Source: Streptomyces seoulensis
GTDB taxonomy: Bacteria; Actinomycetota; Actinomycetes; Streptomycetales; Streptomycetaceae
Reading direction: 5' to 3'
Assembly: GCF_004328625.1 (NCBI RefSeq)
Contig: NZ_CP032229.1
Span: forward strand, 5,766,001 to 5,830,000
Length of the DNA: 64,000 nt
The position numbers and the translations under genes are program-made. This document shows positions 24,120-32,291 of this stretch, piece after piece. How positions within the stretch are numbered: position 1 is the first letter of the stretch; each line of letters starts with the position of its first letter. A model generated the notes under the pieces. That model saw only the letters and a list, made by a program, of their open reading frames with translations. It made no database searches and was not told the DNA's origin.

Positions 24120-24139
24120 CTTACCGAGTGGTGACGTCG
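24120..24139 (+). promoter_or_regulatory. Candidate OmpR-type regulator site and leaderless promoter of the epimerase gene
   Basis: Direct repeat TTACC-N6-TGACG with an 11-bp period, the geometry used by OmpR/PhoB-family regulators. It is one of three related sites (also 27077-27096 and 30884-30903). The second half-site begins exactly 55 bases before the ATG at 24187 and 43 bases before a -10 element TAGCTT (24175-24180). The -10 lies 7-12 bases before the ATG, so the transcript should begin at or next to the start codon. Confidence 0.6.
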
Positions 24140-24186
24140 GGGCCGTGAGCCGGGGAAGTGGGGGTCCGGGGGCCTAGCTTGAGGGC

Positions 24187-25176
24187 ATGCGTGTATTGGT
24201 CACCGGCGGTGCCGGGTTCATCGGGTCGCATGTCGTCGACGCGCTCAGGGCGTCCGGGCACGAGGCCGAGGTCTTCGACGTCCGCGACGACCCCGCCGCG
24301 GACGTCCGCGACCACGCGGCCGTCGCCCGCGCCCTCACCGGCGTGGACGCCGTCTGCCACCAGGCGGCCATGGTCGGCCTCGGCGACGGTGTCTCCGACG
24401 CGGCCGAGTACGTATCCCGCAACGACCTCGGCACCGCCGTCCTGCTGGCCGCGATGGCGGAGGCGGGCGTGCGACGCCTGGTGCTGGCCGGGTCGATGGT
24501 GGTGTACGGCGAGGGCCGCTACGAGTGCCCGGCCCACGGTGTCGTACGGCCGGGCCCGCGCGCCGAGGCCGACCTCAAGGAAGGCCGCTTCGAGCCGCCC
24601 TGCCCCCACTGCGGCACCGCGCTCGTCCCCGGCCTGGTCGGCGAGGACGCCCCGGCCGACCCGCGCAACGTGTACGCCGCCACCAAGCTGGCCCAGGAGC
24701 ACCTGGCCGCGGCCTGGGCCCGCGCCACCGACGGCACCGCGTTCTCCCTGCGCTACCACAACGTGTACGGCCCCCGGATGCCCCGCGACACCCCGTACGC
24801 CGGAGTCGCCGCGTTCTTCCGCTCGGCGCTGGAGCGGGGTGAGGCGCCAAGGGTGTTCGAGGACGGGGGCCAGCGGCGCGACTTCGTGCACGTACGGGAC
24901 GTGGCGGCGGCGAACCTGGCCGCGCTGACGGCGCCGGACCGGCCCGGCACGCTCACCGCGTACAACACCGGCAGCGGCGAGCCCCGCACGGTCGGCGAGC
25001 TGGCCCGGGCGCTGGCCGCCGCGCACGGCGGTCCGGAGCCGGTGGTCACCGGCGAGTACCGGCTCGGGGACGTACGGCACATCACCGCGGACTCCGCCCG
25101 GCTGCGCGCCGAACTGCGCTGGCGGCCGGAGGTCACCTTCGCCGAGGGGATGGCGGAGTTCGCGGGGACCGGCTGA
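24187..25176 (+). CDS. NAD-dependent sugar-nucleotide epimerase/dehydratase with Cys-rich insert
   Basis: Extended short-chain dehydrogenase of 329 residues. The NAD-binding TGGAGFIG lies at residues 6-13 and the catalytic Tyr163/Lys167 in NVYAATKLAQE, followed by the substrate-loop NVYGPRMP. This pattern belongs to UDP-glucose 4-epimerase-like and dTDP-sugar epimerases. Between the catalytic Ser region and Tyr163 sits an insert with CPAH (Cys114, His117) and CPHCG (Cys139, Cys142), which looks able to bind a metal. The likely role is making an activated sugar for the glycosyltransferases encoded downstream. The gene appears leaderless and carries the same upstream operator as the regulator gene at 27029. 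The exact sugar cannot be told from sequence. Confidence 0.85.
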   Translation: MRVLVTGGAGFIGSHVVDALRASGHEAEVFDVRDDPAADVRDHAAVARALTGVDAVCHQAAMVGLGDGVSDAAEYVSRNDLGTAVLLAAMAEAGVRRLVLAGSMVVYGEGRYECPAHGVVRPGPRAEADLKEGRFEPPCPHCGTALVPGLVGEDAPADPRNVYAATKLAQEHLAAAWARATDGTAFSLRYHNVYGPRMPRDTPYAGVAAFFRSALERGEAPRVFEDGGQRRDFVHVRDVAAANLAALTAPDRPGTLTAYNTGSGEPRTVGELARALAAAHGGPEPVVTGEYRLGDVRHITADSARLRAELRWRPEVTFAEGMAEFAGTG

Positions 25177-25177
25177 G

Positions 25178-26290
25178 TCAGGAGGCGGGGGCGGGCAGGG
25201 TCACCTCGAAGCGGCAGCCGCCGGGGATGTTCCGTACGCTCGCCCGCCCCTGGTGCGCCTCCACGATCCCCCGGACGATCGCCAGCCCGAGCCCCGCACC
25301 GGCAGGCGGCGTCCGCGCGTCGGTACCGCGCCAGCCGGTGTCGAAGACGCGGGGCAGGTCCTCCTCCGGGATGCCGCCGCAACCGTCCGTCACCGACAGC
25401 ACCACGCCCTCCGGCGCCCGCCGGGCCGCGACGGCGACCGTGCCGTCGGCCGGGGTGCGCCGGATGGCGTTGACCAGCAGGTTGGCGACGACCCGGCTCA
25501 TCTCCTTGCCGTCCACCTCCACCGGCACCGGCCGCACCCCGTCGCCCACGAGCCGTACGCCGTGCTCGCGGGCGAGCGGGCCCACCCCGGCGAGGGCGTC
25601 GCCCACCAGGTCGTACAGCGAGATCCGGGACGGGCTCAGCGGGAGCGTCCCGGCGTGGATGCGGGAGAGTTCGAAGAGGTCGCCGACCATGCCGTCCAGG
25701 CGTTCCACCTCGGTGCGGATCTGCCGCAGATAGCGGGCCGGATCGGCGGCCACCCCGTCCTCCAGCGCCTCCGACATGGCGCGCAGACCGGCCAGCGGGG
25801 TCCGCAGATCGTGCGAGATCCAGGCGACCAGTTCACGCCGGGACGCCTCCAAGGCGCGCTCGCGCTCCCGGGAGTCGGCCAGCCGGGCGCTGGTCGCGGC
25901 CAACTCCCGGCTGAGGGCGTCCAGTTCGGCGGTGGCCGGGACGGCGGGCGCGGAGAAGGCGCCGGCGTCGCCGAAGTGCCGTGCCGCGTCGGTGAGTTCC
26001 CTGCTGCGGGCGACCACGCGGCGGCCCAGGAGGAGCGCGCTCGCCAGGGAGACGACCGCCGCCATCGCGACGACCGTGGTCACCACCCGCAGATCGTGCG
26101 GCGACAGGAACATCGCCCACGCCACCGCCATCGTGCCCGCCAGCATGGCGAACACGCCGACGCCCGCGACCACGGTGAGCGAGGCGGTCAGCGAGCGGCG
26201 CCGGACCAGCCGCAGCACGGCGGCGCCGAGCAGACCGGAGGCGGCGGCGCCGAGGAAGGCGTAGAGGGCGATGAGGAGGTTGTCACGCAT
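25178..26290 (-). CDS. Sensor histidine kinase
   Basis: Membrane kinase of 370 residues. Two hydrophobic N-terminal segments (about residues 3-25 and 33-80) with almost no extracellular loop are followed by a HAMP-like linker, the H-box WISHDLRTPLAGL with phospho-acceptor His160, the N-box NLLVNAIRRTP, and the ATP-lid motifs DGCGGIPEED and GAGLGLAI. The ATG at 26290 overlaps the stop of the response regulator gene (ATGCGTGA), with a GGAGGAGG site inside that gene, so the two proteins are co-translated. With little exposed outside, it more likely senses a membrane or intramembrane signal. Its stop is two bases from the convergent epimerase stop. Confidence 0.93.
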   Translation of the reverse strand: MRDNLLIALYAFLGAAASGLLGAAVLRLVRRRSLTASLTVVAGVGVFAMLAGTMAVAWAMFLSPHDLRVVTTVVAMAAVVSLASALLLGRRVVARSRELTDAARHFGDAGAFSAPAVPATAELDALSRELAATSARLADSRERERALEASRRELVAWISHDLRTPLAGLRAMSEALEDGVAADPARYLRQIRTEVERLDGMVGDLFELSRIHAGTLPLSPSRISLYDLVGDALAGVGPLAREHGVRLVGDGVRPVPVEVDGKEMSRVVANLLVNAIRRTPADGTVAVAARRAPEGVVLSVTDGCGGIPEEDLPRVFDTGWRGTDARTPPAGAGLGLAIVRGIVEAHQGRASVRNIPGGCRFEVTLPAPAS

Positions 26291-27029
26291 GCCGGTCCTC
26301 CTCCACCCCGGCGGCCGCGTCCGGCTCGAAGCGGTAGCCGACACCCCAGACGGTACGGATCAGCCGGGGCCGGGCCGGATCGTCCTCGACCTTCCCGCGC
26401 AGCCGGCGCACATGGACGGTCACCGTGGACAGGTCACCGAACTCCCAGCCCCACACCTCCCGCATCAGCTCCTCACGGGCGAAGGCGCGGCCCGGATGTC
26501 GCAGGAGGAACGCCAGCAGGTCGAACTCGCGCAGTGTCAGGGCGAGTTCAGCGCCGTCCTTGGTGGCCCGACGGGCAGCGGTGTCCACGGTCAGGCCCGC
26601 CGCCGCGAGCGTGCGGGGAGCGGGCGGTGTGCCGGTTGCCGGGCGGCTGCGGCGCAGGACCGACTCCACGCGCAGCACCAGCTCGCGCGGGCTGAACGGC
26701 TTCGTCACATAGTCGTCCGCGCCGACCTCCAGGCCGAGCACGCGGTCGTCCTCGTCGCCCCGCGCGGTGAGCATGATGACCGGCACCGGGCCGCGCTCGC
26801 GCAGCCGCGCGCACACCTCCAGACCGTCCATGCCGGGCAGCATCAGATCGAGCACCACCAGATCGGGCCACCGCCCGGCGGCGGAGGCGAGGGCGGAGGG
26901 GCCGTCGGCGGCGCGGTCCACCGCGTGTCCGGCGCGGACCAGATACCCGGCGACGACCTCGGCCACGGTCGGGTCGTCGTCCACGACCAGCACACGGCCT
27001 GCGGACGGGGTGGTGTACGGCTGCTGCAT
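26283..27029 (-). CDS. OmpR-family response regulator
   Basis: DNA-binding regulator of 248 residues. The receiver domain (14-125) has the acidic pocket DDD at 17-19, phospho-acceptor Asp61 in VLDLMLPG, the Thr of MLTARG and the Lys of VTKPFSPREL. A winged-helix trans_reg_C domain follows (about 150-240; LTLREFDLLAFLL to TVWGVGYRF). I chose the ATG at 27029, which has GGAGGG upstream; longer frames run into the divergent promoter region. It is the first gene of an operon with the histidine kinase. The 27077-27096 repeat lies at the same 55-base distance from its start as in two other promoters, so autoregulation and control of the flanking sugar genes are likely. Confidence 0.95.
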   Translation of the reverse strand: MQQPYTTPSAGRVLVVDDDPTVAEVVAGYLVRAGHAVDRAADGPSALASAAGRWPDLVVLDLMLPGMDGLEVCARLRERGPVPVIMLTARGDEDDRVLGLEVGADDYVTKPFSPRELVLRVESVLRRSRPATGTPPAPRTLAAAGLTVDTAARRATKDGAELALTLREFDLLAFLLRHPGRAFAREELMREVWGWEFGDLSTVTVHVRRLRGKVEDDPARPRLIRTVWGVGYRFEPDAAAGVEEDRHA

Positions 27030-27076
27030 GCCCTCCAGCCTGGCACCACCACCGCGTCCCGGGCGCCCCGGCTCCC

Positions 27077-27096
27077 GGACGTCCGCGTTTCGTAAG
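27077..27096 (-). promoter_or_regulatory. Shared operator between regulator gene and GT2 gene
   Basis: Read on the minus strand this is TTACG-AAACGC-GGACG, an 11-bp-period direct repeat. It shares ACGAAACGC and GACGTC with the site at 30884-30903. Its centre is 57.5 bases from both divergent starts (27029 and 27144). The GT2 side has a clear -10 TAGGGT at 27131-27136; the regulator side has a weaker AGGCTG/CAGGCT at 27036-27042. Confidence 0.65.
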
Positions 27097-27143
27097 GAGC
27101 GCAAGTCCGGTTCGTCCCGGTTCGGGTTCGTAGGGTGAAGGCC

Positions 27144-27866
27144 GTGACCACCTCACCCCCACCCCCCGGTCCCTCCGTGGACGTCGTGCTGCCCTGCCTG
27201 GACGAGGCCGAGGCGCTGCCCTGGGTCCTGGCCCGCATCCCGGCCGGCTGGCGTGCCATCGTCGTGGACAACGGCTCCACCGACGGCTCCGCCGAGGTCG
27301 CGCGCGCCCTGGGCGCCACCGTCGTCCGCGAGGAGCGGCGCGGTTTCGGCGCCGCCTGCCACGCCGGGCTGCTCGCCGCCACCGCGGACCTGGTCTGCTT
27401 CTGCGACTGCGACGCCTCCCTCGACCCGGGCCTGCTGGTGCCCTTCACCGAGGAGGTGCGCACGGGCGCCGCCGACCTGGTGCTCGGTCGCCGTCGTCCG
27501 CAGGGGCGGGGCACCTGGCCCGCGCACGCCCGCGCGGGCAACCTCGCGCTCTCCCTGCTGCTGCGCCGCCGCACCGGCCTCACCCTGCGCGACCTCGGCC
27601 CGCTGCGCGCCGCCCGCCGCGCACCCCTGCTCGCCCTCGGCCTCACCGACCGGCGCAGCGGCTACCCCCTTCAGATGGTGGTCCGCGCGGCCGACGCGGG
27701 CTGGCGGATCACCGAGCACGACGTGCCGTACCTGCCCCGTTCCGGCGCCTCCAAGGTCACCGGCACCTGGCGCGGCACCTGGCAGGCGGTACGCGACATG
27801 AGCCGCGTCCTCAAGGAAGCACCGGCGGCGGAGCGGGAGCGGACGGCACCGGGGGGTACTCGGTGA
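27144..27866 (+). CDS. Family 2 glycosyltransferase
   Basis: Cytoplasmic GT-A glycosyltransferase of 240 residues. VDVVLPCLDEAEALPWVL, VDNGSTDGS and the metal-binding CDCDASLDPG are the usual nucleotide-sugar-binding and DxD-like motifs of polyprenyl-phosphate mannose/glucose synthases. No membrane segment follows. It probably moves a sugar from a nucleotide donor onto a lipid carrier or other acceptor. I chose the GTG at 27144 because a TAGGGT -10 box lies 8-13 bases upstream, which fits a leaderless start; a GTG at 27135 is also possible. The DUF2064 and methyltransferase genes follow closely and probably form one operon. Confidence 0.87.
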   Translation: MTTSPPPPGPSVDVVLPCLDEAEALPWVLARIPAGWRAIVVDNGSTDGSAEVARALGATVVREERRGFGAACHAGLLAATADLVCFCDCDASLDPGLLVPFTEEVRTGAADLVLGRRRPQGRGTWPAHARAGNLALSLLLRRRTGLTLRDLGPLRAARRAPLLALGLTDRRSGYPLQMVVRAADAGWRITEHDVPYLPRSGASKVTGTWRGTWQAVRDMSRVLKEAPAAERERTAPGGTR

Positions 27867-27909
27867 GCGCAGGGCCTCCCACGGGCGCTGCGGTACCTGG
27901 AGAACGCCC

Positions 27910-28527
27910 ATGACCACTCTCCTCGTCATCGCCAAGGAACCCCGGCCCGGCAGGGTCAAGACCCGGCTCACCCCGCCGTTCACGCCTGCCCAGGCCGCCG
28001 CGCTCGCCGAGGCCGCGCTCGTGGACACGCTGCGCGCGGTGGCCGCCGCCCCCGCGAAACGCCGGGTCCTGGTCCTGGACGGACGTCCGGGACCCTGGCT
28101 CCCGGACGGTTTCGAGGTCGTCCCGCAGTGCTCGGGCGGCCTCGACGAACGCCTCGCGGACGCCTTCTCCCGCTGCACCGGCCCCACTCTGCTGGTCGGC
28201 ATGGACACCCCACAGCTCACCCCCGGCATGCTGAACCTGGACTTCGCCGACTGCGACGCCCGCTTCGGCCCGGCCGAGGACGGCGGATTCTGGGCCCTCG
28301 GCCTGGCACGCCCCGAGCCCGGCCTGCTACGCGGCGTACCGATGTCCGTGCCCGAGACGGGGAGCGTGCAGCGCGAGCGGCTGGCCGCCGCCGGGCTGCG
28401 GGTCCGCGAGCTGCCCCGGCTGCGGGACGTCGACACCGCCGCCGACGCCCGCGCCGTCGCCGCCCTCGCCCCGGACACCGCCTTCGCCGCGCGTCTGGCG
28501 GCCCTCACCCACCCCGGAGCAGCATGA
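27910..28527 (+). CDS. DUF2064 nucleotidyl/glycosyltransferase-like protein
   Basis: Protein of 205 residues from the family annotated as DUF2064 or TIGR04282. The KEPRPGRVKTRLTPP signature near the N-terminus, GMDTPQLTP in the middle and FGPAEDGGFWALGL resemble the CofC/MobA nucleotidyltransferase fold. Family members commonly sit next to a GT2 enzyme, as here, and are thought to modify or activate sugars; no reaction has been firmly assigned to my knowledge. A GGAG site precedes the ATG. Its stop overlaps the next start (ATGA at 28524-28527). Confidence 0.82.
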   Translation: MTTLLVIAKEPRPGRVKTRLTPPFTPAQAAALAEAALVDTLRAVAAAPAKRRVLVLDGRPGPWLPDGFEVVPQCSGGLDERLADAFSRCTGPTLLVGMDTPQLTPGMLNLDFADCDARFGPAEDGGFWALGLARPEPGLLRGVPMSVPETGSVQRERLAAAGLRVRELPRLRDVDTAADARAVAALAPDTAFAARLAALTHPGAA

Positions 28528-29282
28528 GCACCGTGACAGCGCCCGCCTGGGCCGCCTCCGACCCGTACGCCACCGCGCTGCGCACCGGCCGGGGCCCGCT
28601 GTTCCTGCGGCGGGGCGACGGCTGGCTGCTGCCGCTGGACGTGGAGCGCTGGTGCGCGGCGGCCGACGCCGTGGACCGGGCGGTGCTGGACCGCTGCGAG
28701 GGGACCGTACTCGACGTGGGCTGCGGCCCCGGCCGGCTGGTGGCGGAACTCGCCGCGCGCGGCCGCGGCGCCCTCGGCGTCGACGTGAGCGAGGCCGCGG
28801 TGGCCCGCACCCACACCCTCGGCGGGCGGGCGCTGCACCGCTCGGTGTTCGACCCGCTGCCCGGCGAGGGCGGCTGGGGCACGGTACTGCTCATGGACGG
28901 CAACGTGGGCATCGGCGGCGACGTGGCCGCCCTGCTGCACCGGATGCGCGAGCTCCTCCGCCCCGACGGCCTGCTGATCGTCGAGACGGCACCCGGAGAC
29001 GTCGACGAGCGGTCCCGTGTACGCGTGGTGGACGTGACGCACGGCGGGGGAGCGGTGGGCGAACCGTTCCCCTGGGCCCGCGTCGGCACGCCCGCGCTGC
29101 TGGCACTCGCGCGGCGCGGAGGCTGGCCGGAGACGGTTCAGTGGACGGACGGCGAGCGGTGCTTCGTGGCGCTGCGCAGCCGCAGGACGAGCAGCAGGGC
29201 CGAGCCGCCGAAGAGCACGGCCGTGATGAGCAGCCAGCGGAGCAGGAACACGTCCGGGTCGAGCCCGGTGGCCGACCGGTAG
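28524..29282 (+). CDS. Class I SAM-dependent methyltransferase
   Basis: Protein of 252 residues. The SAM-binding motif VLDVGCGPGRL, the acidic residue at the end of the second strand (LGVDVSEAAV) and the later LLRPDGLLIVETAP are typical of class I methyltransferases. It is coupled to the DUF2064 gene by an ATGA overlap. The recognisable fold ends near ERCFVALR; the last 30 or so residues are low-complexity Arg/Ser-rich and overlap the convergent membrane-protein gene by 145 bases, so they may be only a consequence of the missing stop. The substrate is unknown; the context suggests a glycan, glycolipid or sugar precursor. Confidence 0.85.
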   Translation: MSTVTAPAWAASDPYATALRTGRGPLFLRRGDGWLLPLDVERWCAAADAVDRAVLDRCEGTVLDVGCGPGRLVAELAARGRGALGVDVSEAAVARTHTLGGRALHRSVFDPLPGEGGWGTVLLMDGNVGIGGDVAALLHRMRELLRPDGLLIVETAPGDVDERSRVRVVDVTHGGGAVGEPFPWARVGTPALLALARRGGWPETVQWTDGERCFVALRSRRTSSRAEPPKSTAVMSSQRSRNTSGSSPVADR

Positions 29283-29593
29283 CGGTCGGCCGACAGGCCC
29301 AGGATCAGCGGGCACCACACCAGCAGGGCCAGCCCGGACAGCACGGCGGGCACGCGTACGTACAGCGTCCACCGCGCGGCCGTCCCCGCCCGCAGCGCGC
29401 GGTCGAGCGCGGAGTAGAGCGGCAGCAGCACCAGGTCGTGCAGCAGCGCCGCCCCCACGAACCAGAGGGCCACCCCGAGCCAGTCGTCCGCCAGGAGGCG
29501 TACCCCGGCATAGGCGACGAGCGCGAACGAGCAGACCAGCAACAGCAGTTGCAGGGGGCTGCCGAGCAGGGCACGGAACGTGGGCCGGCGCAT
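29138..29593 (-). CDS. Small multi-pass membrane protein
   Basis: Protein of 151 residues with four predicted membrane helices (LLLLVCSFALVAYAGV, a stretch near WFVGAALLHDLVLLPL, VPAVLSGLALLVWCPLIL and LLITAVLFGGSALLLVLRL). I do not recognise a characterised family. The ATG overlaps the stop of the upstream molybdopterin oxidoreductase gene (TGATG), so the two are made together and probably work together, perhaps as a membrane partner or electron-transfer subunit. Its 3' end runs 145 bases into the convergent methyltransferase gene. Confidence 0.75.
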   Translation of the reverse strand: MRRPTFRALLGSPLQLLLLVCSFALVAYAGVRLLADDWLGVALWFVGAALLHDLVLLPLYSALDRALRAGTAARWTLYVRVPAVLSGLALLVWCPLILGLSADRYRSATGLDPDVFLLRWLLITAVLFGGSALLLVLRLRSATKHRSPSVH

Positions 29594-30837
29594 CACAGGT
29601 CTCCGAAGGTCAGCCGGCCCACCCACTTGGTGTTGTGGACGCCGGGGGCGGCGGGCACGATGATCCGCGCCGGATAGCCGTGGTCGAGGGACAGTTCCTC
29701 GCCGTTGACGTACAGGGCGAGCAGGGAACGCGGGTCGGACACCTGGTTGGCACGCAGCGCCGCCCGCCGGAAGGCGCCGTGCCGCTGGAGGGACTCCACC
29801 AGCAGGTCGGGCGGATCGCCCTCGTACCCGGCGAGCGCGGCGAGGTCGCTCAGCCGCACCCCGCGCCACCACTGGTCCGCCGTGGACCAGCCCTCGACGC
29901 AGGCGATGGGCAGCGACGAGCTGTGCTGCGGCAGCCGGAGCAGTTCGGCCCGGCCGAGCCGGACCGTGCCCGCCGGACCGGTGAGGACCAGGCGCCAGGC
30001 ATCCGGATGAGTATCGGCGTCGGTGATCCCGGCATACCGGGCCGTCTTGTTGATCTGGAAACCGTTCGGACCGCCGCCGGGGTCGGCCCCGCCGTGCGGC
30101 GCGAGCAGCGCGGTACGGCGAAGCGGGCCGCCGAGGCTCTGCCCCACCGTCGTCACGAACAGCAGCAGCGAACCCCCGCCGACCAGCCACAGCGCGCCCC
30201 GGCGGGACACGGTGGGCGGCGCCGGCTCCGGGGCGGCCAGCTCCGCCTCGTCACCGGAGTCCCCGCGCCGCCGCGCCCGTACGGTCCGCACGGCCATCGG
30301 TGTCCGCAGCACCGCGTGCACGACGAACGCGGCGATGAACACCCAGGCGCCGTAGAAGTGCAGCGGGTAGAACGAGCCGGGGAAGACGTACTCCAGCTGG
30401 ATGTTGAGCAGCCCGGTGACGAACTGGAACAGGGCGCCGCCGACCAGCAGCAGCAGCGAGACCCGCTCCAGCGCGTGCGCCACCGAACGGGCCGGTGGCA
30501 GCGTGAACAGCTTCGGCACCACCGACCACAGCTTGGCCAGCAGCACCGGGACCAGGACGACGCCCAGCGTGACGTGGACGCCCTGGCTCAGCCGGTACAG
30601 CCAGGACGGCCCGGCCGGCCAGTCGAAGAGGTAGAAGCCAAGCACCCCCTTGTCGGGAGTCGTGTCGTTCACCGGCGAGAGGTCCGGGTTGTAGGCGGCG
30701 TAGGACACCAGCCCGGTCACGAACAGCACGCTGATGCCGCCGAGCAGCACCAGCCCGAGCACCGCCGTGAACCAGGTGCCGCGCAGGGGGCTGCGCCAGA
30801 AACGGGGAGAGGTGGGAAGCCGGGGATCGTCGCGCAT
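29593..30837 (-). CDS. Membrane-anchored molybdopterin-dependent oxidoreductase (sulfite-oxidase fold)
   Basis: Fusion protein of 414 residues. The N-terminal half carries four or five hydrophobic helices with histidines (GVHVTLGVVLVPVLL, HFYGAWVFIAAFVVHAVL) that look like a cytochrome b-type membrane domain. After an Arg-rich linker and VSRRGALWLVGGG comes a sulfite-oxidase-type molybdopterin domain with the Mo-ligand Cys313 in SLPIACVEGWS, plus DQWWRG and SLDHGYPARIIVPA. The active site should face outside the membrane. I start at the ATG 30837. A -10-like TACGGT lies 7-12 bases upstream on the minus strand, and the operator at 30884-30903 lies between this gene and the divergent membrane protein. 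Confidence 0.88.
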   Translation of the reverse strand: MRDDPRLPTSPRFWRSPLRGTWFTAVLGLVLLGGISVLFVTGLVSYAAYNPDLSPVNDTTPDKGVLGFYLFDWPAGPSWLYRLSQGVHVTLGVVLVPVLLAKLWSVVPKLFTLPPARSVAHALERVSLLLLVGGALFQFVTGLLNIQLEYVFPGSFYPLHFYGAWVFIAAFVVHAVLRTPMAVRTVRARRRGDSGDEAELAAPEPAPPTVSRRGALWLVGGGSLLLFVTTVGQSLGGPLRRTALLAPHGGADPGGGPNGFQINKTARYAGITDADTHPDAWRLVLTGPAGTVRLGRAELLRLPQHSSSLPIACVEGWSTADQWWRGVRLSDLAALAGYEGDPPDLLVESLQRHGAFRRAALRANQVSDPRSLLALYVNGEELSLDHGYPARIIVPAAPGVHNTKWVGRLTFGDL

Positions 30838-30883
30838 GCCCCGACCGTAGGCCCGGCGACACCCCGGAACGGCCCTGCGACCC

Positions 30884-30903
30884 ATGACGAAACGCTGACG
30901 TCA
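30884..30903 (+). promoter_or_regulatory. Shared operator between oxidoreductase and GT-C-like gene
   Basis: TGACG-AAACGC-TGACG followed by TCA, an 11-bp-period direct repeat. The second half-site is 55 bases from the GTG at 30951 and 43 bases from its TAGCGT -10 (30939-30944), the same spacing as at 24132. In the other direction, the distance to the TACGGT -10 of the oxidoreductase gene is 51 bases, the same as the distance from the 27077 site to the TAGGGT of the GT2 gene. Confidence 0.65.
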
Positions 30904-30950
30904 GGCCCGGAAGGCGGACCGGAGCCGCCCCTACGGCCTAGCGTGCCGGT

Positions 30951-32291
30951 GTGATCCACCACCCGCCCCACACCTCACGCCGTGACCTGTACGCCGCAGC
31001 GGCAGCCGTTTGGCTGGTGACCGCCGCCGTCCTGGTCGGCCGTCATATCCAGGACGCCCACCACACCCTGTTCGTGCACTGGCCTCCGCTCTTCGCCGAC
31101 TGGGACCCGCACGTCGGCCCCGGCACCCCGGCCGCGCTGATCCTCGCGGCCGCCGGAGTGGCGTACGGGCCCCCGCTCGCCGCCCGGCTGCCATGGCGTG
31201 CCCTGCCCTGGGCGGTCTGGGCAGCCTCCGCCGCCTGGATCGTCTCCCTCGCCCTGATCGACGGCTGGCACGACGGCATCGCCAGGCGGCTCACCACCGC
31301 CAACGAATACCTTCAGGTCATCGGCCGCTTCCACGACATCCCGGCCACCCTGCGCGGCTTCGACGGCCACATCCTCGCGGGCGTGCCCGGCAACTGGCCC
31401 GCCCATGTCGCCGGCCATCCCCCCGCCGCCACGCTCACCTTCGTGCTGCTGGACCGGATCGGGCTGGGCGGTGGCGGCTGGGCCGGGATGTGGTGCGTGG
31501 TGCTGGGCGCGTCCGCCGCCGCCGCGGTCCTGGTCACCGTACGGGCGCTCGCCGGCGAACCCCTCGCCCGGCGCGCGGCTCCCTTCCTGGTCCTCGCCCC
31601 GGCCGCCGTCTGGATGGGCGCCTCGGCCGACGCCTACTTCGCCGCCGTGGCCGCCTGGGCACTGGCCTGCCTCGCGCTCGCCCTCACCCGCCGCTCCCTG
31701 CTCTGGGCGGCCGCCTCAGGACTGCTCGCCGGGCTGACCTGCTACCTCTCGTACGGCCTCACCCTGATCGCCCTCATCGGGCTCGCGGTACTCGTCCTCG
31801 CCCGCGCGGACCTGCGGGCCCGCCCCCTGCTCGTGCTGCCCTTCCTCGCCGGACTGGCCGTGGTCCCGGTCGTGTTCGCCCTGTACGGCTTCAACTGGTG
31901 GACCGCCTATCACCTGTTGGTGACCCGCTACTACCAGGGTGTGGGCGGCACCCGCCCGTACAGCTACTGGATCTGGGCCAACCTCGCCTGCGCCGCGATC
32001 ATCACCGGCCCGGCGACGGCGGCGGCCCTCCCGCGCACCGCCGGTTCCCTGCTCCACCGGAACGACGACCGCCCCGCCGCCCGCCTCGCGCTGATCGTCT
32101 GCGCGGCCCTGGCCGGACTGCTGATCGCGGACCTGTCCGGCATGAGCAAGGCGGAGACGGAACGCATCTGGCTCCCCTTCGCGGTGTGGCTGCTGGCCGC
32201 GGGCGCCCTGCTCCCGCGACCCCGTGCCTGGCTGGCCGCCCAGGTGACCCTGGCCCTGCTGATCAACCACCTTCTGCTGACGGGGTGGTGA
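30951..32291 (+). CDS. Polytopic membrane protein, GT-C glycosyltransferase-like
   Basis: Integral membrane protein of 446 residues with about ten to twelve hydrophobic helices. A long first extracytoplasmic loop holds acidic and His residues (DWDPHVGPG, GFDGHILAGVPGNWPAHVAGHPP), as in GT-C mannosyltransferases that use lipid-linked sugars. I do not see a decisive family motif. The GTG start lies 7-12 bases after the -10 TAGCGT and has no good ribosome site, so it appears leaderless. Shared control with the GT2 and epimerase genes supports a role in surface glycan or glycolipid assembly. Its last 29 bases overlap the convergent acetyltransferase gene. Confidence 0.75.
   Translation: MIHHPPHTSRRDLYAAAAAVWLVTAAVLVGRHIQDAHHTLFVHWPPLFADWDPHVGPGTPAALILAAAGVAYGPPLAARLPWRALPWAVWAASAAWIVSLALIDGWHDGIARRLTTANEYLQVIGRFHDIPATLRGFDGHILAGVPGNWPAHVAGHPPAATLTFVLLDRIGLGGGGWAGMWCVVLGASAAAAVLVTVRALAGEPLARRAAPFLVLAPAAVWMGASADAYFAAVAAWALACLALALTRRSLLWAAASGLLAGLTCYLSYGLTLIALIGLAVLVLARADLRARPLLVLPFLAGLAVVPVVFALYGFNWWTAYHLLVTRYYQGVGGTRPYSYWIWANLACAAIITGPATAAALPRTAGSLLHRNDDRPAARLALIVCAALAGLLIADLSGMSKAETERIWLPFAVWLLAAGALLPRPRAWLAAQVTLALLINHLLLTGW

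Follow-up and report, generated by a model that had tools for sequence, protein, structure and literature searches.

A conserved direct repeat accompanies an OmpR/PhoB-type two-component system in Streptomyces and probably marks leaderless promoters of envelope glycan and redox genes

The window analyzed here, a 64,000-nt stretch of a 6.4-Mb Streptomyces genome (G000:C1:5766001-5830000), contains a histidine kinase and an OmpR/PhoB-type response regulator that are accompanied by copies of a direct repeat. Several described systems resemble this one in part, and one of them involves MsrP, a molybdoenzyme. According to the consulted part of PMC9302797, the Escherichia coli HprSR-MsrPQ system is likewise a two-component pair lying beside, and controlling, an extracytoplasmic enzyme with a membrane partner; its HprR box (CATTACAAAATTGTAATG) is unlike the repeat described below. 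PhoB-type proteins bind two direct repeat units of 11 nt, as stated in the consulted part of PMC4415409, and the PhoB/PhoP systems (PHO box, including Streptomyces PhoP) are like ours in having a PhoB-type regulator and 11-nt direct repeats. Their operator sequence is a different one, however, and the genes linked to the repeat here are envelope glycan and redox genes. CutRS is also a two-component system of Streptomyces, with a small regulon mapped in Streptomyces venezuelae. In the part of PMC12802291 consulted, it activates from positions 62 and 69 bp ahead of the transcription start site (TSS), and its targets include secretion-stress proteases, unlike the genes considered here. The CutR site given in that part, TAWATAAA, is unlike our motif, and identity with CutR was rejected.

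By sequence, the nearest NCBIfam model and the nearest solved structure (2gwr) to the regulator belong to MtrA/MtrB. MtrB has a sizeable ectodomain, whereas the kinase of our locus has none. The regulator reached 235.9 bits against the NF040689 cut-off of 300 and was not accepted as MtrA; PhoB (219.5 bits; TIGR02154 cut-off 296.2), CseB (184.1 bits; NF041733 cut-off 350) and HprR (159.4 of 353 bits) were rejected likewise, as was MsrP for the oxidoreductase (21.1 of 207 bits). Two species closely related to S. coelicolor, S. anthocyanicus and S. rubrogriseus, carry the regulator at 85-86 % identity; the 120 regulator matches listed included no named S. coelicolor entry, and an S. coelicolor locus tag was looked for and not found. 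No section heading in the consulted part of a review of S. coelicolor two-component systems (PMC9739842) could be matched to this system. Among the papers listed by topical searches of the open-access literature (10 of 24 in one search), none concerns it, judged by titles and the beginnings of abstracts; it may have been described in a subscription journal or by its locus tag.

Comparison of loci makes it likely that the regulator activates leaderless promoters of the oxidoreductase, the glycosyltransferase-like enzymes, the epimerase and itself. The regulator gene (positions 26283..27029, minus strand) encodes a receiver domain (PF00072, 1.3e-31) and a winged-helix Trans_reg_C domain (PF00486, 1.3e-27), the combination characteristic of the OmpR/PhoB family. 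The original prediction had placed T(G/T)ACG-N6-(T/G)GACG, written TKACG-N6-KGACG here, in three regions. A strict search returned two of them, site 2 (TTACGAAACGCGGACG, 27080..27095, minus strand), which runs on into GACGTC, and site 3 (TGACGAAACGCTGACG, 30885..30900, plus strand), which is followed by TC. Direct reading confirmed that these two share GACGTC, as had been claimed. Site 1 (TTACCGAGTGGTGACG, 24121..24136, plus strand) is followed by TCG and departs from the pattern by a degenerate first half-site, TTACC. From the start of the half-site TKACG to that of KGACG it is 11 bp, a spacing conserved in the genus and in the class and in agreement with the 10-11-bp period of direct repeats in the OmpR/PhoB family.

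Upstream of five genes, -10 boxes were located by eye. They are TAGCTT of the epimerase gene (24175..24180, plus strand, 6 nt before ATG), the -10-like CAGGCT of the regulator gene (27037..27042, minus strand, 7 nt before ATG), TAGGGT of the gene for a family 2 glycosyltransferase (GT2; 27131..27136, plus strand, 7 nt before GTG), TACGGT of the oxidoreductase gene (30844..30849, minus strand, 6 nt before ATG) and TAGCGT of the GT-C-like gene (30939..30944, plus strand, 6 nt before GTG). The predicted distance of 55 nt between the second half-site and the start codon was found for all three genes concerned (24187, 27029 and 30951), and the divergent boxes of the GT2 and oxidoreductase genes were as described. 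The distance of 43 nt between the second half-site and the -10 box held for the epimerase and the GT-C-like gene; for the regulator (CAGGCT, 27042-27037) we counted 42 nt.

The strict 16-mer pattern matched twice in the window versus 1.19 matches expected, and at least two matches were obtained in 36/100 shuffles; the bare pattern was therefore rejected as sole evidence. Genome-wide it had 45 matches, versus 14 for the reversed pattern. The extended pattern TKACGRANNNNKGACGTC, with at most one mismatch, gave 8 matches versus 2 for the reversed control. Two of these were exact, both local, and six had one mismatch, site 1 among them. Two of the four nonlocal strict matches with R-A at positions 6-7 lie inside reading frames rich in GC at third codon positions. 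The bare 16-mer is weak alone; most of the significance lies in the position of the sites and in the orthologous loci.

The genus footprint comprised the best 80 named loci from one scan with the oxidoreductase (more loci existed), in which the ten neighboring proteins were placed by tblastn. The closest loci among these 80 were from Streptomyces bauhiniae and S. griseoluteus, with 88-99 % protein identity over ten genes. Loci in which the two flanking genes were not both present, or in which no epimerase gene had the expected orientation, were omitted from the counts of the respective region; sites were scored on the same strand over 12 core positions, at most one core mismatch meaning a score of at least 11. 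The strict motif was found in 69/77 oxidoreductase/GT-C regions, 64/67 regulator/GT2 regions and 53/64 epimerase regions. With at most one core mismatch, these counts rose to 77/77, 67/67 and 60/64 (L078, at another position, included), the opposite of the loss of repeats beside kept genes that the original prediction had named as its refutation. TTACC, as in site 1, recurs in L001, L002 and L007, while 53/64 relatives have TTACG. On the opposite strand, the core positions scored at most 10/12. The loci share descent, yet many flanking columns have drifted, while the motif columns are near-invariant and the -10 boxes are kept.

All 11 nonstrict sites in the oxidoreductase/GT-C and regulator/GT2 regions differ by one and the same change, GACG to GACA. 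A single G-to-A replacement, giving GACATC in place of GACGTC, was seen in the oxidoreductase/GT-C region of L003, L020, L022, L034, L038, L054 and L055, and in the regulator/GT2 region of L033, L041 and L079. Tandem copies of the motif occur in the regulator/GT2 region of L048, L051, L085 and L106, where they are 46, 81, 23 and 46 bp apart, respectively.

Anchored on the strict sites, the hexamer TA[ACG]NNT occupied nearly fixed positions. On the GT-C side it started 38 nt past the motif in 63/69 relatives, and at the epimerase promoter 38 nt past it in 46/53 and 39 nt in 7. In the divergent direction, the distance was 35 nt for the oxidoreductase promoter in 65/69 relatives, and 34 nt (56/64) or 35 nt (6) for the GT2 promoter. 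The regulator's own -10 sequence was less uniform: among 64 relatives, the distance of AGGCT from the motif was 49 nt in 22, 50 nt in 13 and 38 nt in 12. The original prediction is thereby corrected in that the -10 box of the regulator occurs in relatives at two positions about 11 bp apart. No -35-like hexamer stood out on the GT-C and epimerase sides, where it was looked for.

Where TANNNT (NAGGCT for the regulator) was in the expected place, a start codon, taken as the first possible codon and not necessarily the real one, followed 4-8 nt past the box in 68/68 GT-C-like, 69/69 oxidoreductase, 53/53 epimerase, 62/62 GT2 and 48/48 regulator loci. A possible codon is found at 10-27 % of arbitrary positions. 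In the part of PMC4895711 consulted, leaderless promoters are defined by TANNNT with a 5' untranslated region shorter than 9 nt; the same part gives TANNNT as the common -10 sequence in S. coelicolor and 21.0 % of primary starts as leaderless. The geometry of all five promoters fits this definition, the regulator having NAGGCT instead of TANNNT. With -10 boxes at fixed distances and start codons 4-8 nt on, the earlier proposal of leaderless promoters at five genes gains support, as far as sequence can provide it.

Orthologs outside the genus were considered next to those of Streptomyces. Among 296 genomes of the class, 120 matched the regulator at E <= 1e-72. Streptomyces accounted for 24 of these; in the other 96, which belong to other genera, the relatives were 51-79 % identical. 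From the 96 non-Streptomyces loci, 40 were hand-picked for variety, and 260 bp upstream plus 20 bp of the regulator gene were used. Many loci of families f13, f17 and f18 retain GT2, DUF2064 and kinase neighbors. The strict motif was present on the regulator strand upstream of 16/40 orthologs and on the other strand of 0/40, whereas first-order shuffles gave an expectation of 0.15, with 2 as the largest value in 300. A looser form was found upstream of 24/40 orthologs versus 0.53 expected. The site was present even where no glycosyltransferase neighbor was found (L209, L213, L220 and L229). A motif-blind count of 4-mer pairs with gaps of 3-19 put TTAC-N8-GACG first (18/40; maximum in five shuffles, 9); for the further pairs that were common (up to 16), the coding end of GT2 is probably part of the explanation. 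Upstream of the next-closest paralogs (about 50 % identity, 10 loci in 9 genomes), the motif was absent on the gene's strand.

In 26/40 loci there were 29 loose motif instances, for which box distances were counted by hand. TANNNT followed 37-39 nt after 16/29 of them, and on the divergent side 7 instances had it at a distance of 33-35 nt and 6 at 23-24 nt. We infer that the shift of about 11 bp corresponds to one helical turn, as contact between an activator and RNA polymerase would select. Two loci of family f18, L206 and L207, have two motif copies 39 bp apart, located 38 nt from the regulator -10 box and 23 nt from that on the GT2 side; this looks like a separate operator for each promoter.

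The sites are linked to the regulator gene. Across 101 Streptomyces genomes, the exact extended pattern had 133 matches in 69 genomes, versus 2 for the reversed pattern, and a regulator ortholog (E <= 1e-88) was present in 82. A regulator gene lies no more than 12 kb away from 105 of the 133 sites; a further 21 are more distant from it in regulator-positive genomes, and the remaining 7 belong to regulator-negative ones. A site occurs in 64/82 positive versus 5/19 negative genomes (Fisher p = 3.6e-5, a value that, like the counts within the genus, ignores shared ancestry). Among the negative genomes with a site, G055 contains part of a regulator close to the end of a contig, the site of G013 is within a reading frame, and that of G040 has none of these genes nearby. 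The oxidoreductase itself was found in 62/101 genomes, 59 of them regulator-positive. Together with the motif upstream of orthologs in other families, the co-occurrence of site and regulator supports the original prediction that the regulator is the protein that binds the repeat.

The site also stays with its genes when they are separated from the regulator. In L016, L073, L074 (another contig) and L042 (about 50 kb), the oxidoreductase/GT-C pair is away from the regulator yet has kept the site, and the regulator gene elsewhere also keeps its own; in L039 and L070 the regulator is merely a few kb beyond the locus edge. Reading of 19 of the 21 distant sites showed that 8 adjoin genes of this kind (G016, G032, G072, G073, G037, G087, G092 and G043). 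These include a PF00174 enzyme with TCCAAT at 38 nt (G087), divergent oxidoreductase homologs (G073 and G037) and a GT87 enzyme (G092). A different PF00174 enzyme, this time close to the regulator, is found in G045 and G057, where TCGAAT is at 38 nt. Upstream regions of 20 unlinked oxidoreductase copies were hand-picked, of which two from G028 and one from G109 represent genomes negative for the regulator; five contained the full motif (G016, G072, G070, one of three in G032 and one of two in G028). In G020, a site (L136:3011) precedes a lactonase-like beta-propeller gene and has TAGCGT at 49 nt instead of 38, one helical turn further.

Several observations weigh against the proposed control by the regulator, besides the shared ancestry of the loci counted. 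In the genome under study, five nonlocal one-mismatch matches of the extended pattern stand against two in the reversed control. No exact extended match was detected in 18/82 regulator-positive genomes, nor a loose match upstream of 14/40 orthologs outside the genus. Ten of the 19 distant sites read are beside neither kind of gene (G022, G091, G012, G081, G106, G058, G088, G077, G011 and G064). The full motif is missing in 15/20 unlinked oxidoreductase copies. Among these 15, the region from G037 ends at a contig end and that from G076 has 10/12 core positions; 14 of the 15 are 66-71 % identical and form an apparent separate branch (L272-L285), which may be under another regulator. G028, a genome in 4 contigs and 100 % complete, is a genuine exception: it keeps the oxidoreductase/GT-C site, and its regulator matches do not exceed about 51 % identity. 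G017 resembles it in having the pair and the site, but it is fragmented (740 contigs). Finally, the proposed control offers no explanation for a conserved block at 27096-27130, in the stretch that separates site 2 from the -10 box of GT2; this block may represent a -35 element or another operator.

The genomes G028 and probably G017, which keep the site without a regulator ortholog, would suit a different arrangement, in which the repeat is the operator of a factor encoded elsewhere and the two-component pair is only one of its targets. The GACGTC end of the repeat, a palindrome readable by other proteins, would suit it too. We nevertheless consider such a factor quite unlikely, given the concentration of 105 of the 133 sites near the regulator gene and the recurrence of the site before regulator genes of other families, including loci in which no glycosyltransferase neighbor was found. 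Moreover, direct repeat units of about 11 nt are the known PhoB-type mode according to the consulted part of PMC4415409. Ordinary conservation of promoters or coding sequence, or chance in GC-rich DNA, is an extremely improbable source of the pattern. The 45 genomic occurrences of the bare pattern would be in keeping with chance, but not the near-invariance of the motif columns next to drifting flanks, the ceiling of 10/12 on the opposite strand, the shuffle expectation of 0.15 versus 16/40 or the reversed pattern with 2 versus 133 matches.

Somewhat unlikely is that the regulator binds the repeat but represses, or that it activates one side only and the second -10 distance is fixed for other reasons. 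Because a direct repeat is asymmetric, it is not self-evident that both directions would be activated equally; the away-facing -10 box is at 34-35 nt, not 38, and the additional conserved block on the GT2 side could serve there as a -35 element or as another operator. Against this view, the motif lies well upstream of every -10 box and never across one. Outside the genus, the away-facing distances cluster at 33-35 nt (7/29) and 23-24 nt (6/29), as if docking on one helical face had been selected, and at the epimerase site no -10 box faces away from the motif at a fixed distance.

We thus favor activation by the regulator. What the comparison itself shows are the sites, with their strand and spacing, and the fact that they are linked to the regulator; a mechanism can be proposed on this basis. 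The regulator (26283-27029) would bind TKACG-N6-KGACG(TC), most likely as a head-to-tail dimer like OmpR/PhoB proteins, at repeats that precede the predicted start points of transcription by about 48 to 66 bp, and would activate promoters with the conserved -10 box. Five leaderless transcripts are predicted: that of the epimerase; that of the regulator and the kinase, which would imply autoregulation; a GT2-DUF2064-methyltransferase transcript; that of the oxidoreductase and its small partner; and that of the GT-C-like protein. In the two divergent regions, a single asymmetric operator would work both ways. The mode of action would be that of OmpR/PhoB regulons, as far as these are described in the consulted part of PMC4415409.

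The kinase gene (25178..26290, minus strand; PF00512 and PF02518) encodes hydrophobic N-terminal segments, three by eye, without a sizeable extracellular domain, and F-L-S-x-H-D-L is invariant in an alignment of 13 kinase sequences. Since the kinase has no sizeable outside domain but this conserved motif, its signal probably arises in or at the membrane. The membrane molybdopterin oxidoreductase (29593..30837, minus strand) consists of an N-terminal membrane part and a PF00174 domain, the only Pfam domain detected, and it matched no curated NCBIfam model. MsrP-type enzymes are likewise not known to have a Pfam domain other than PF00174. The best solved relatives of the oxidoreductase are sulfite oxidases (4e-8). 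In an alignment of 81 sequences, histidines 88, 121, 160 and 174, all in the apparent membrane part, and Cys313 in the molybdenum domain are invariant. The gene directly downstream encodes a small membrane protein (29138..29593, minus strand), for which Pfam and NCBIfam profile searches gave zero matches.

The GT-C-like membrane protein (30951..32291, plus strand) had no match in a Pfam search or in a sequence-profile search against solved structures, and its likeness to GT-C enzymes comes from an AlphaFold model and Foldseek. The model has a predicted TM-score (pTM) of 0.81 and a mean predicted local distance difference test (pLDDT) score of 71. The best Foldseek hits were AftA, OST and ArnT, with a probability of 1.00 and E values of 1.1e-3 to about 1e-2, none of them <= 0.001; the query TM-scores were 0.33-0.48 over ranks 1-20, for a model of this mean pLDDT. 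AftA, OST and ArnT use polyprenyl-linked donors. The GT2 glycosyltransferase (27144..27866, plus strand; PF00535) had as its best NCBIfam match the dolichyl-phosphate hexose transferase model NF041391, at 78.7 of 375 bits, below the cut-off.

The remaining genes are those for an NAD-dependent epimerase/dehydratase (24187..25176, plus strand; PF01370, 4.7e-46), a DUF2064 protein (27910..28527, plus strand; PF09837, TIGR04282-like at 115.4 of 134 bits, below the cut-off) and a class I S-adenosylmethionine-dependent methyltransferase (28524..29282, plus strand; PF13489, 1.1e-10). The end of the methyltransferase open reading frame (28524-29282) overlaps the convergent small membrane-protein gene (29138-29593) by 145 nt. 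The cluster is preceded (1180-23012) by very long plus-strand reading frames of 4777 and 3071 amino acids and one of 4687 amino acids on the minus strand.

The resemblances of the GT-C-like protein, GT2 and the oxidoreductase point to an envelope glycan pathway and a redox step outside the membrane, and the product of the circuit would be envelope glycan assembly coupled to this extracytoplasmic redox step. One can speculate further, toward a picture that we regard as unlikely in its entirety, that this is an ancient actinobacterial envelope-repair circuit. The ectodomain-less kinase would sense an oxidant or the redox state in the membrane, and one directional operator, docked on a fixed face of the helix, would drive leaderless promoters on both sides, for polyprenyl-linked glycan enzymes and for a molybdoenzyme of MsrP-like type that has a cytochrome-b domain of its own. 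The system would then be an independently arisen counterpart of E. coli HprSR-MsrPQ, and would offer a natural series in which the distance from activator to promoter changes cleanly by single turns.

For the genus, the analysis predicts a binding site, a target list and promoter positions for a system carried by 82/101 sampled Streptomyces genomes. With the repeat as the regulator's own binding site, the control circuit would be easily testable. It would link glycosyltransferase-like proteins, a membrane molybdoenzyme and orphan genes, and because several gene families would be joined in it, one mutant and one chromatin immunoprecipitation experiment could assign function to several of them. 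The kept activator-promoter distances, with their jumps of about one turn, would further provide a natural data set on contact between a regulator and RNA polymerase, including the case of one operator serving two directions.

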